DNA of 64,000 nucleotides from an uncultured Clostridia bacterium (GTDB lineage: Bacteria > Bacillota > Clostridia > Oscillospirales > Acutalibacteraceae): NCBI GenBank assembly GCA_946406145.1, contig CAMJJL010000003.1, positions 1-64,000 of the forward strand, given 5' to 3'. Below the pieces are notes generated by a model. It saw nothing but the letters and a program-made list of their open reading frames with translations. It did not search any database and was not told where the DNA came from. Shown here piece after piece: positions 18,295-49,928 of the stretch. Position 1 is the first letter of the stretch. Each line of letters starts with the position of its first letter. Position numbers and translations under genes: made by a program.

Positions 18295-18581
18295 ATCGCA
18301 CCTCCATATTCTGATCGTTATTGCAAAGGATAAGATGGAGATTGCCGCGTCGGAACGATGTTCCTCCTCGCAATGGCAATCTGAAATGCGCCCCGCGGTA
18401 ATCTCAACCAAGCAATTGATCCTGATATCAGTATACCATACTAAGGTAATATTGTACAGTTTTCCGGTCAGAATCTTGTATGCTATGAGGATAGAAAAAA
18501 CGTCGACAATACTGGTATAATATAAATGATAGTCTCCCTTTCCTAAGGGAGGTGGGCGCGCTTGCGCGCTCGGAGGGTTGA

Positions 18582-20099
<1,518 letters not shown>

Positions 20100-20115
20100 A
20101 GTGAGGAGCTAAAAA

Positions 20116-20643
20116 GGCTTCCCCTCGGGGGGAAGCTGTCAGACAGACATGTCTGACTGATGAGGGGATAACCTATTCTTTCAATCTGTTTTTCAAAGAG
20201 TGGTGAACGATGCAGAATAAACTAACCGGTTTTTCACAAAAGCTCCGTAAGAATATGACAAAAGAAGAAAGACACCTTTGGTATGATTATCTGAAACGAT
20301 TACCTGTTACTGTGAATCGTCAAAAGGTAATCGGAGAATATATCGTTGATTTTTATGTCGCCGAAGCAAGAATAATAATTGAACTCGACGGTTCACAACA
20401 TTATTCAGAAGCCGGAGAACACCACGATAGAGAACGTGATGATTATTTCAGAAGAATCGGGGTTAAAGTGTTGCGATATACCAATCGACAAATACATAAA
20501 GAGTTTGACAATGTATGTCATGACATCGGGCGTCAAATTGAGAGTTCGATGAAAGGAAGAAAACTCTTTGTATAAAGCATTTGGATGCAAGGTGAGCCCC
20601 TCATCCGTCAACGTTGTTGACACCTTCCCCCCGAGGGGAAGGC
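20116..20643 (+). mobile_element. DUF559-encoding element with ~45-50 bp terminal inverted palindromic repeats
   Basis: Left GCTTCCCCTCGGGGGGAAGCTGTC...GATGAGGGGATAACC; right ...GAGCCCCTCATCCG...ACACCTTCCCCCCGAGGGGAAGGC (inverted). Internal ends align with the short copies at 38316-38518 and 49727-49928. Confidence 0.65.
20210..20575 (+). CDS. DUF559 domain protein (VSR-like endonuclease fold)
   Basis: LRKNMTKEERHLWYDYLKRLPVTVNRQKVIGEYIVDFYVAEARIIIELDGSQHY...RDDYFRRIGVKVLRYTNRQI. Confidence 0.88.
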   Translation: MQNKLTGFSQKLRKNMTKEERHLWYDYLKRLPVTVNRQKVIGEYIVDFYVAEARIIIELDGSQHYSEAGEHHDRERDDYFRRIGVKVLRYTNRQIHKEFDNVCHDIGRQIESSMKGRKLFV

Positions 20644-20673
20644 TATTGATCCAATAAGTGAGGAACAAGATTT

Positions 20674-23374: not shown

Positions 23375-23536
23375 CCTCCCTTTCCTAAGGGAGGTGGCCC
23401 GAAGGGCGGAGGGTTGCAACCCCCGGTCGCCTTCCGATATAACAATTCACGCGGTGAGGCGGAAACGCATCCACCTCATCCGCTTCACTTCGTTCAGCAC
23501 CTTCCCCTTAAGGGGAAGGCTCAGAAAGGAACAACA

Positions 23537-27949: not shown

Positions 27950-28010
27950 AGTATCTCCATTCAGCCTTGCTCTTGAGTAAGTGCCGATTAATGCGGTTTT
28001 CGTATTCGTC

Positions 28011-28159
28011 GTCATTCCGAGGAGGGGCAAAGCCCCGACGTGGGAATCCCCCTGATAAGGGTAGAAGCTCACTGTTAAAGCCATGAATGACAAGGGGATT
28101 GCCACAGCCTGCCGTTTTACGGCACCTCCCTGAAGGGAGGCTTCGGGCTTCGCAATGAC
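28011..28159. repeat. MITE-like repeat, inverted relative of 24041-24240
   Basis: GTCATTCCGAGGAGGGGCAAAGCCCCGACGTGGGAATCCCC...GGGGATTGCCACA...CTTCGCAATGAC. Confidence 0.6.
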
Positions 28160-28208
28160 ACTGTTATTGTTACGTCGATTTATTCGACGGTTACTCGGGG
28201 GGAAGCCT

Positions 28209-29672
28209 TTAGATCAGTCCAACCTCAGCGTTGAACGCCTCGATGTATTCATCGAGCTGTTCCGCCTGCTTGTGCACGGCGTCCCAGGTGTTCTCGGTGT
28301 CATACCACAGGGCGTTGAGCTCCTCGGCGGTGCGACCCTGCTGTTCGACCCATGTGTAATACTTGAGGTTGTGCACACGCTTGCGCTCCTTGTAGGTCAG
28401 CTCCAGCATATTGTCATCCTTGAGGTTGAGGATGTGCAGGTTGTGGTCGAGCTCTGCCTTGTGCACGTCGTAGTCGCCGTACATCTCTTCGAGCTCCTTG
28501 ATGCGGCTCTGATACATTACGGCTGAGTCGGTCAGCACAGTGCCGAGCACATCATTTTCGGTAAATTCATAATACTTCGCCATTTTGATACAGCACAGAA
28601 GATTCGCGATACCAGAAATGCCAAGCAGATTGAGCTGTTCGGCAAGCTCGCGCTCAACGCCGACGGATACCAGATAATCGATACCCTCAGGCGTGTTGAA
28701 CAGTCGGAGCAGTCGCTGGCTGTCCTCATCGTCGATGTCAATGACCATATCGGTGTTCTTAACGTTGTGGATCCACGGGATATGCTTGTCGCCGATTCCC
28801 TCGATGCGGTGACCGCCGAAGCCGTTGTCCAGAATGGTAGGACACTGCAGGGCTTCGCCGACGCCGAGCTTAAGATTCGGGTATTGCTCCTTGAGGTAGT
28901 CGCCCGCGCTCATCGTGCCTGCCGAACCGGAGGTAAAGCACGCGCCCGCAAATCGATCCTTCTCACCCTTGATCGATTCAAACGCGTCCGCTAACGCGTG
29001 ACCGGTGACGTTGTAGTGCCACAGGGGGTTGCCCATCTCTTCAAACTGGTTGAAGATCATCACCTCGGGGCGTTGCTTGAGCTCCCATGTTTTGTCGAAG
29101 ATCTCTTTGACGTTAGATTCGCACCCCGGGGTCGCGATGACCTCGCCTGCGATTTTACTGAGCCAGTCAAAACGCTCGCGGCTCATTTCCGCCGGCAGGA
29201 TCGCGATACTGTCGCAGGACAGCAGCTTTGAGTTGAACGCGCCGCCGCGGCAGTAGTTGCCGGTGGACGGCCATACCGCCTTGTGCCTGGTCGCGTCGAA
29301 CTGACCGGTCACCAGTCGCGGCGCTAAGCATCCGAACGACGCGCCGACCTTATGACAGCCGGTGGGGAACCACTTGCCGACGATCGCGAAGATCCGCGCC
29401 TTCACGCCGGTGAGAGCGGAGGGCAGCTCGATGATGTTCGGGATCTCACGGAACAGACCGCCGCTTTCCTTTGGTTCATTCTTCCATGTGATGCGGAACA
29501 GGTTGACGGGATCGACGTCCCATAAACCCGTGTGGCTGAGCTTCTCTTTGATCTTCTCGGGGATCAGCTCGGGGTGCTGCATCTGTTTGATAGTCGGGAT
29601 GATGATGCCGTTTTCACGTGCTTTTTCGATATTGTGATGTAATCCTTCTTTGTTAACGGTAAAGTCGATCAT
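28209..29672 (-). CDS. PLP-dependent enzyme (PALP family) in the ygeW/ygeY neighbourhood
   Basis: LPSALTGVKARIFAIVGKWFPTGCHKVGASFGCLAPRLVTG...WPSTGNYCRGGAF...FTSGSAGTMSAGDYL. Confidence 0.75.
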   Translation of the reverse strand: MIDFTVNKEGLHHNIEKARENGIIIPTIKQMQHPELIPEKIKEKLSHTGLWDVDPVNLFRITWKNEPKESGGLFREIPNIIELPSALTGVKARIFAIVGKWFPTGCHKVGASFGCLAPRLVTGQFDATRHKAVWPSTGNYCRGGAFNSKLLSCDSIAILPAEMSRERFDWLSKIAGEVIATPGCESNVKEIFDKTWELKQRPEVMIFNQFEEMGNPLWHYNVTGHALADAFESIKGEKDRFAGACFTSGSAGTMSAGDYLKEQYPNLKLGVGEALQCPTILDNGFGGHRIEGIGDKHIPWIHNVKNTDMVIDIDDEDSQRLLRLFNTPEGIDYLVSVGVERELAEQLNLLGISGIANLLCCIKMAKYYEFTENDVLGTVLTDSAVMYQSRIKELEEMYGDYDVHKAELDHNLHILNLKDDNMLELTYKERKRVHNLKYYTWVEQQGRTAEELNALWYDTENTWDAVHKQAEQLDEYIEAFNAEVGLI

Positions 29673-38315: not shown

Positions 38316-38518
38316 GCCTTCCCCTCGGGGGGAAGGTGTCGACCAACGGGAGACGGATGAGGGGACAACCTTTCCTATAGATGTAGGATTCAGTGGGCTG
38401 AATGATTACCGAGAATCGTGAAAAAGCCTTACTCTCTTTGTTAAGATGATCTTTCGGCTAACTCAGCCCCTCATCCGACTCGGCTTGCGCCGAGCCACCT
38501 TCCCCCCGAGGGGAAGGC
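38316..38518. repeat. ~203-bp non-autonomous copy of the DUF559-type element
   Basis: GCCTTCCCCTCGGGGGGAAGGTGTC...GATGAGGGGACAACC ... CTCTTTGTTAAGATGATCTTTCGGC...GCCCCTCATCCG...CACCTTCCCCCCGAGGGGAAGGC. Confidence 0.7.
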
Positions 38519-41617: not shown

Positions 41618-41668
41618 ATAGCCTTCCCCTTGAGGGGAAGGATCTGATTTACTCTACCCGGAAGGAAT

Positions 41669-42595: not shown

Positions 42596-42894
42596 GCTCC
42601 CATTGGTAATGGGTCGCGTGCGACATGCTGTCTCTCAAAAAAAGGCTCCCTTTGGTAAAGGTGCTCCCCGTTGGGGAGACGTCGCGAAGCGACAGAGGGG
42701 GAGCCGCTTCCGGCGAGGAGGCTGTCTCCGAACGGAGGCTGAGGGATTGGATAATTGTTTGAGCGTTAGCGAGTAACCATTTTATAATAAGGTTGCCATG
42801 GTAATTGGCGATTCATACAATCCCTCCGAGCTTGCCTTTGGGCAAGCCCACCTCCCTTTACCAAAGGGAGGCTAAGTTTTCCGAAAGAAGGAAT

Positions 42895-49726: not shown

Positions 49727-49928
49727 GCCTTCACCTCGGGGGGAAGGTGGCTCAGCGTAAGCTGAGTCGGATGAGGGGCTGACTTAGTTGAAAGATCATC
49801 TAAACAAAGAGTGTGAATCTTTTCCTTTATCCTCGGTAAACATACAGCCTTAGCGAGTCCGACATCAATAGGAAGAGTAATCCCCTCATCCGTCACCTTT
49901 GGTGACACCTTCCCCCCAAGGGGAAGGC
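49727..49928. repeat. ~202-bp non-autonomous copy of the DUF559-type element (opposite orientation to 38316-38518)
   Basis: Terminal inverted repeats GCCTTCACCTCGGGGGGAAGG / CCTTCCCCCCAAGGGGAAGGC; internal ...CAAAGAGTG...GGATGAGGGG. Confidence 0.7.

Follow-up and report, generated by a model that had tools for sequence, protein, structure and literature searches.

DUF559 Nuclease Genes Between Inverted Triplex-Type Ends: a Probable New Class Among the Small Mobile Elements of Bacteria

Organization of the Locus

The window, i.e., the whole stretch of 64,000 nucleotides that was analyzed, carries at positions 20116–20643 (+ strand) a unit of 528 bp whose sole gene, encoding a DUF559 protein, lies between two inverted triplex-type ends, as judged from the sequence, the profile match of the reading frame and the orthologous sites of relatives. 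The unit is intergenic, with an FGGY kinase gene (glpK-like) on one side and an FAD oxidoreductase gene on the other. The left end (+ strand) begins with hairpin 1 (GCTTCCCCTCGGGGGGAAGC, 20117–20136), in which the co-varying base X is C, continues with a variable hairpin 2 (GTCAGACAGACATGTCTGAC, 20138–20157), recognized from its sequence and its variability across the loci of relatives, and finishes with the third strand TGATGAGGGG (20158–20167, co-varying base Y = T), a triplex-code mirror of the 3′ arm of hairpin 1. The gene follows at 20210–20575 (+ strand). The right end, on the − strand, is made up of the third strand GGATGAGGGG (20597–20606, Y = G), hairpin 2 (GTCAACGTTGTTGAC as read on the + strand, 20607–20621) and hairpin 1 (CCTTCCCCTCGGGGGGAAGG, 20623–20642, X = G). 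Read toward the gene, the order within an end is hairpin 1 (GCTTCCCC..GGGGAAGC or CCTTCCCC..GGGGAAGG), a T, the variable hairpin 2, and TGATGAGGGG or GGATGAGGGG. The sequence of hairpin 2 is hypervariable with the stem kept, also when the left and right end of the same unit are compared (20138–20157 versus 20607–20621). An earlier, sequence-only reading of this DNA had described inverted palindromic ends; their inversion stands, but they are compound structures (hairpin 1, hairpin 2 and a G-rich third strand) rather than plain palindromes.

Two short, presumably non-autonomous copies of about 200 bp, which hold no gene and share the ends and a subterminal stretch with the full unit, lie in opposite orientations at 38316–38518 (+ strand) and 49727–49928 (− strand). 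The same reading had placed the gene and both copies at these coordinates, with these sequences, and had taken the copies for internally deleted relatives of the gene-bearing unit, all of which is borne out. The subterminal stretch CTCTTTGT, within which the DUF559 reading frame of the full unit ends, is present at about the same position in 10 of the 12 distinct short copies of this type, so that these are best understood as internally deleted derivatives.

Other motifs of the window comprise a composite short unit at 23375–23519 (+ strand), with a CCTCCC-type left end and an CCTTCCCC-type right end, in place of which several related species have either nothing or something else at the orthologous site; a solo hairpin 1 (CCTTCCCCTTGAGGGGAAGG) at 41622–41641, where the rest of the end is missing; two triplex-type motifs in inverted order, with third strands pointing outward, at 42819–42894 (strand not assigned in these last two cases); and one triplex-type motif upstream of the glpK-like gene at 18534–18579 (+ strand). 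With at most three mismatches allowed, the window contains 15 matches to the 20-base end palindrome, and 100 shuffles gave none. A third repeat family, GTAGGGG..GACCCGCCC..CCCCTACA, in which no gene was recognized, occupies such gaps in other species: the counterpart of 23375–23519 in G017 and in G114, and the loci L154 and L206.

The Nuclease

The 121-residue product of the reading frame matches the PF04480 profile (E = 2e-28) of Vsr/EDxHD-like nucleases, and residues D47, E58, D60, H64 and D73 are invariant in both alignments that were made (10 and 33 sequences). The predicted structure (pLDDT 89) has as its fold neighbors, best first, 3hrl (a DUF559-type protein of Neisseria), the catalytic domain of I-Bth0305I, and Vsr; by this model, the nearest enzyme apart from DUF559 itself is the homing endonuclease I-Bth0305I. 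The gene appears from sequence comparison to be under constraint, and third codon positions vary more than the rest between the DUF559 genes of the window and of a related locus (L153). For the presumed nuclease activity, VsrA of Caulobacter offers indirect support (PMC12907096). Matches to PADLOC and PHROG entries were weak or partial. When the end class (ATGA versus GAGGG type) is mapped on the nuclease tree, 8 changes are needed, compared with at least 17 after shuffling: nuclease clades track end class.

High-copy, paired inverted palindromes resemble REPINs, and such repeats could in principle be moved, as in REP/RAYT or IS200/IS605 systems, by a Y1 HUH transposase. We consider this highly improbable here, as a search for Y1 transposases (PF01797) gave no match in the host genome (assembly about 5% incomplete) and was positive in 5 of 14 control genomes.

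The Ends Co-vary as Triplex-Type Motifs

With respect to the 3′ arm of hairpin 1, the G-rich strand that follows hairpin 2 is a mirror, and neither a complement nor a repeat. A search in which X (the last base of the arm) and Y (the first base of the third strand) were both left free returned 204 distinct ends, among which X/Y is G/G in 107, C/T in 84 and A/A in three genuine cases, with three genuine misfits; the remaining matches look like chance. At least seven of eight positions obey the mirror triplex code in 28 of 32 distinct pairs of arm and third strand, compared with a maximum of 15 in re-paired sets, and a direct-repeat model fits none of the 32. G.G:C, A.A:T, T.A:T and T.C:G are known triads of antiparallel triplexes (PMC10609763), and the ends, as far as their sequences tell, co-vary as an antiparallel purine-motif DNA triplex would (G.G-C, A.A-T, T.C-G). 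Since the two ends are of different class in 23 of 40 non-redundant units, X and Y must have switched together many times, and such repeated, linked change is more than shared ancestry alone can explain. One consistent mismatch, a third-strand A over G in the GGGGAAGG families, violates the code. In the cell, the ends would presumably form such triplexes.

Several other descriptions of the ends were discarded. That each unit has one C/T and one G/G end did not survive as a rule after de-duplication, the proportion just given being not significantly different from the expected half; a G-quadruplex as the folded form is contradicted by the presence of four runs of three G in just one of the 204 ends; and a code-agnostic scan for mirror versus direct partners was too noisy, the re-pairing test being used in its place.

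Linkage of DUF559 Genes to End Motifs

The host genome contains five DUF559 genes, all five of them bounded by inverted ends, with four different end sequences; the end of the window's unit thus represents one of several end families in this genome, each found with its own DUF559 gene. A search of the genome gave more than 200 strand-hits of the end palindrome at up to three mismatches (109 forward and 114 reverse, near-perfect palindrome copies being counted on both strands), with none in the control. Gene-less copies in this genome number in the dozens. Contigs C20, C34, C67, C75, C79 and C85 of G000 end within tens of bases of end motifs, which suggests that the repeats break the assembly and that copy numbers are underestimated. 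At locus L053, the left end is apparently interrupted by another G-rich hairpin repeat, as in a nested insertion.

Within the genus, DUF559 matches were found in 29 of 60 genomes, with variants of the same end plan at most of the loci checked. End motifs of the two main types are more numerous in genomes with strong DUF559 matches (Mann-Whitney p = 4e-6, and p = 9e-6 without the genome of the window), an association confounded by lineage; some members of the genus carry the motifs without DUF559.

A scan of GTDB genomes yielded 80 DUF559 loci, mostly from Clostridia, of which 74 were testable. A motif fitting the code lies within 350 bp of the gene at 72 of these 74 loci, compared with 9 of 142 shifted controls (Fisher 2e-44), and motifs lie on both sides at 48 of 74, compared with 1 of 142 (Fisher 9e-28); at 38 of the 48 two-sided loci, the third strands point inward. 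A code-free test for inverted repeats agrees (50/75 DUF559 loci versus 1/133 controls). In the genome of the window and the contigs of its genus relatives, motifs flank four of five DUF559 genes on both sides, compared with none of 67 small reading frames other than DUF559 and 4 of 317 frames of any size. Outside the main scan, 16 records from Proteobacteria, Deinococcota, Cyanobacteria and plasmid hosts were inspected, and a motif was found near DUF559 in 13 of them (E. coli, Neisseria, Sinorhizobium, Shinella, Sphingomonas, Sphingobium, Azospirillum, Photobacterium, three Deinococcus, Synechocystis and Pseudanabaena), compared with 4 of 30 shifted controls; the three records without one are those of Novosphingobium, a Geobacillus plasmid and a P. 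aeruginosa plasmid. The sequence-only reading had named as observations that would speak against it DUF559 genes lacking the ends and ends lacking any positional link to DUF559, and the outcome is the opposite, both at the GTDB loci and in the repeat numbers of the genus and of E. coli (see below). Among the open papers that mention DUF559 (subscription papers lay outside the search), no link of this family to repeats was found.

Individual records add detail. The position of DUF559 within the hpa gene cluster differs between two Deinococcus species. Directly behind the DUF559 gene of Photobacterium plasmid pGJ3-1 (L069, 2367–3951) begins a series of about 18 triplex motifs arranged in tandem, most of which alternate in orientation. 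In Pseudanabaena plasmid pPg_02 (L284, 1363–1964), DUF559 with two-sided motifs lies within an annotated reading frame of 1,621 aa, into which the unit may therefore have inserted in frame.

E. coli Box C Repeats and ycjD

The motif that adjoins the DUF559 gene ycjD of E. coli is the box C/PIT/TM_ECO repeat. This repeat folds into an intrastrand triplex in vitro, as demonstrated by CD and NMR, and its kind occurs in 262 proteobacterial genomes; no function, mover or associated gene class was found for it, and stability of the E. coli triplexes in vivo was not seen (PMC4666352). The ends in the window do not match the strict TM_ECO pattern (CCCTCNCCC N3-6 GGGNGAGGG N3 GGGNGAGGG) and, because their arms differ and their second loop measures 16–21 nt, they belong to the general box C/TM class and not to TM_ECO.

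The gene ycjD is present in 3366 of 5426 E. coli genomes. In an even sample of genomes, a comparison that lineage confounds, those with ycjD have 8–20 places matching box C (median 14, the ycjD place included) and those without it 1–9 (median 2; p = 1e-10). Strains of the O157 type lack ycjD and keep about nine box C copies. In two ycjD-less strains (L287 and L288), an RND efflux operon and a TetR gene stand directly upstream of fabI, where ycjD is found in strains that have it; with this operon beside fabI in the ycjD-less strains examined, the place did not serve as a clean empty site.

These repeats also bear on the idea that the motifs are ordinary bidirectional terminators or RNA elements, next to which DUF559 would lie incidentally. 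Hairpin 1 with its flanking A/T tracts does look like a terminator, and the units are intergenic. Yet TM/PIT repeats showed neither promoter nor terminator activity in E. coli (PMC4666352), an Rfam search of the window gave no family match, and neither the mirror code of the third strand, nor the two-sided linkage to one gene family, nor absence at orthologous sites would be expected of terminators; we regard this explanation as very improbable.

The main rival is another one, according to which host processes (replication slippage, break repair, recombination) or some other enzyme would spread the motifs, DUF559 being cargo that was trapped between two of them and is retained for a function, such as structure-specific repair, that is useful to the host or selfish. 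It gains from the motifs that exist without DUF559 in O157-type E. coli and in some members of the genus, from the still putative nature of the action of the nuclease on the ends, and from Caulobacter VsrA, a DUF559 protein and presumed Vsr-like repair enzyme with a role in the response to DNA damage (PMC12907096). It accounts poorly for the rarity of two-sided flanking around other genes (in the reading frames and in the shifted controls counted above), for the association of DUF559 with unrelated motif sequences across phyla, for end classes that follow nuclease clades and for repeat numbers that track DUF559. On balance, we find it unlikely that DUF559 is a mere passenger.

Mobility at Orthologous Sites

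At the glpK site, the full unit is found in four other species; the gap is nearly empty in some species, holds a different unit in many, and in one retains only the outer half-hairpins of the unit, around another repeat. That the unit interrupts a glpK-oxidoreductase operon, as had been proposed, is correct and not special, the gap being a turnover site that houses other repeat units in related species. At L157, L159, L161, L163, L167–L169, L171, L173 and L176–L179, the gap (20100–20673 in the window) is occupied by another unit, in which inverted arrays of GGAGTTAGGAGTGAGG-like repeats enclose a gene for a 23S rRNA-intervening-sequence protein (PF05635, E = 4e-30); this unit, too, appears to be mobile and to have a single gene. 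Within the triplex-hairpin remnant in the glpK gap of G113 (L152), there is a further repeat family, GTCATTGCGAGG..CAATGAC, seen also at L233 and at 27986–28215 of the window, and each of the 14 relatives searched contains matches to parts of it.

At the glpK site, comparison of the window with another species (L156) reveals an exchange bounded by the element: the units are 99–100% identical and the flanks about 88–92%, and third codon positions agree at 97.5% in DUF559 versus 79% and 76% in the neighboring genes. At L153, the flanks are nearer to those of the window than are the flanks of L156, with a unit that is more distant. Such exchange is strong at the glpK site only, and weak or mild for one short unit. 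It fails as a general rule at L002 and L003, where it is absent and the unit has diverged no more slowly than its flanks; same-site exchange is therefore not universal. What resembles homing could be ordinary recombination.

Other sites exist in alternative states. A single hairpin 1 replaces the unit of L004 and L002 in some relatives, and at the site of L001, relatives have a short unit (three families are represented), a hairpin on its own, or no element at all. Solo palindromes had been considered as joined outer halves, and hence as empty targets, a notion dropped when the first candidates turned out to be ends of other units; true solo hairpins do occur at orthologous sites, as candidate unoccupied sites, and may be deletion scars. 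An insertion between near-identical strains was not found among the relatives compared, whose flanks are too diverged, and for want of such an empty site no target duplication has been defined. The sequence-only reading had proposed a look at empty sites in sister strains; full, short, solo and empty states are all present among the relatives.

Presence and absence of whole units also helps to weigh a guarding or addiction function, by which DUF559 would cut triplex motifs (or sites devoid of them) and persist as a selfish gene, with the repeats as marks or protection. Such a function would be in keeping with the co-occurrence of motif and gene, and with the damage that a Vsr-type nuclease can do to its own host when modification is missing (PMC12907096). 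It has no need, however, of features that are those of transposons, namely bounding by two inverted motifs, deleted short copies with the same ends, and presence or absence of the unit as a whole, and we consider it improbable.

A Proposed Homing-Like Model of Movement

The units are very probably mobile and linked to DUF559. We propose that they probably constitute a new class among the small mobile elements of bacteria, in which intrastrand-triplex ends are combined with a DUF559 nuclease acting as a likely homing-like mover; that DUF559 itself moves the units is the reading we favor, with some reserve. In this model, DUF559 would recognize the folded ends, or a hairpin common to ends and target, in single-stranded or supercoiled DNA, and would nick or cut there. 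Host repair would then copy the unit into the cut site in a homing-like manner, giving rise to same-site transfer between species and occasionally to new sites, and short copies devoid of the gene would be mobilized in trans. The unit could be lost by recombination or slippage between its two hairpin-1 copies, with one hairpin staying behind on its own. Both the binding and cutting of ends by DUF559 and the copy-in step by repair are steps that we infer. More tentatively, the class could be pan-bacterial, with the Hoogsteen-read triplex end as a recognition code and DUF559 as the enzyme that cuts, homes and spreads gene-less repeats, such as box C of E. coli.

The sequence-only reading had suggested a mobile unit with a non-DDE mode of transposition in the spirit of REP/RAYT. 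Mobility and the underlying logic hold up, with no Y1 transposase found in the genome; what it had missed are the box C-class triplex ends, the link across phyla and the likeness to homing endonucleases. If the model is correct, there exists a type of mobile element that works without DDE, Y1 or recombinase enzymes, and DNA triplexes serve as a biological signal that is under selection, the ends co-varying in their bases by Hoogsteen and not by Watson-Crick rules. Triplex repeats (box C/PIT/TM) are catalogued in hundreds of bacterial genomes and have so far lacked a mover, and no role has been assigned to the common family DUF559; joining the two gives each a testable function.

Comparison With Known Systems

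The closest counterparts of the ends are the box C/PIT/TM_ECO repeats of E. coli, which likewise possess a hairpin, its 3′ arm rich in purines, together with a mirror third strand that folds back, are intergenic and present in high copy number, sometimes form inverted pairs and are unstable between strains, one copy adjoining ycjD. Their second loop has 3 nt, whereas the units described here carry a variable hairpin in this loop, have other arms and bound a nuclease gene. REP/REPIN repeats and their RAYT (TnpA-REP) share the inverted pairs of palindromes and the spread in trans around an element with a single small gene; the DUF559 units differ in having a PD-(D/E)XK-type nuclease instead of a Y1 HUH enzyme, and ends with a mirror third strand. 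MITEs associated with DDE transposons are comparable in their gene-less copies of about 200 bp that keep the ends of a longer unit, but the present unit contains no transposase, its ends are palindromic and conserved in structure, and no target duplication is defined for it. EDxHD/Vsr-like homing endonucleases such as I-Bth0305I offer the nearest solved fold apart from DUF559 and a parallel to the same-site transfer seen at one locus, with flanks unchanged; unlike them, the DUF559 unit lies outside any intron or intein, is bounded by repeats, occupies many sites and is accompanied by short gene-less copies.
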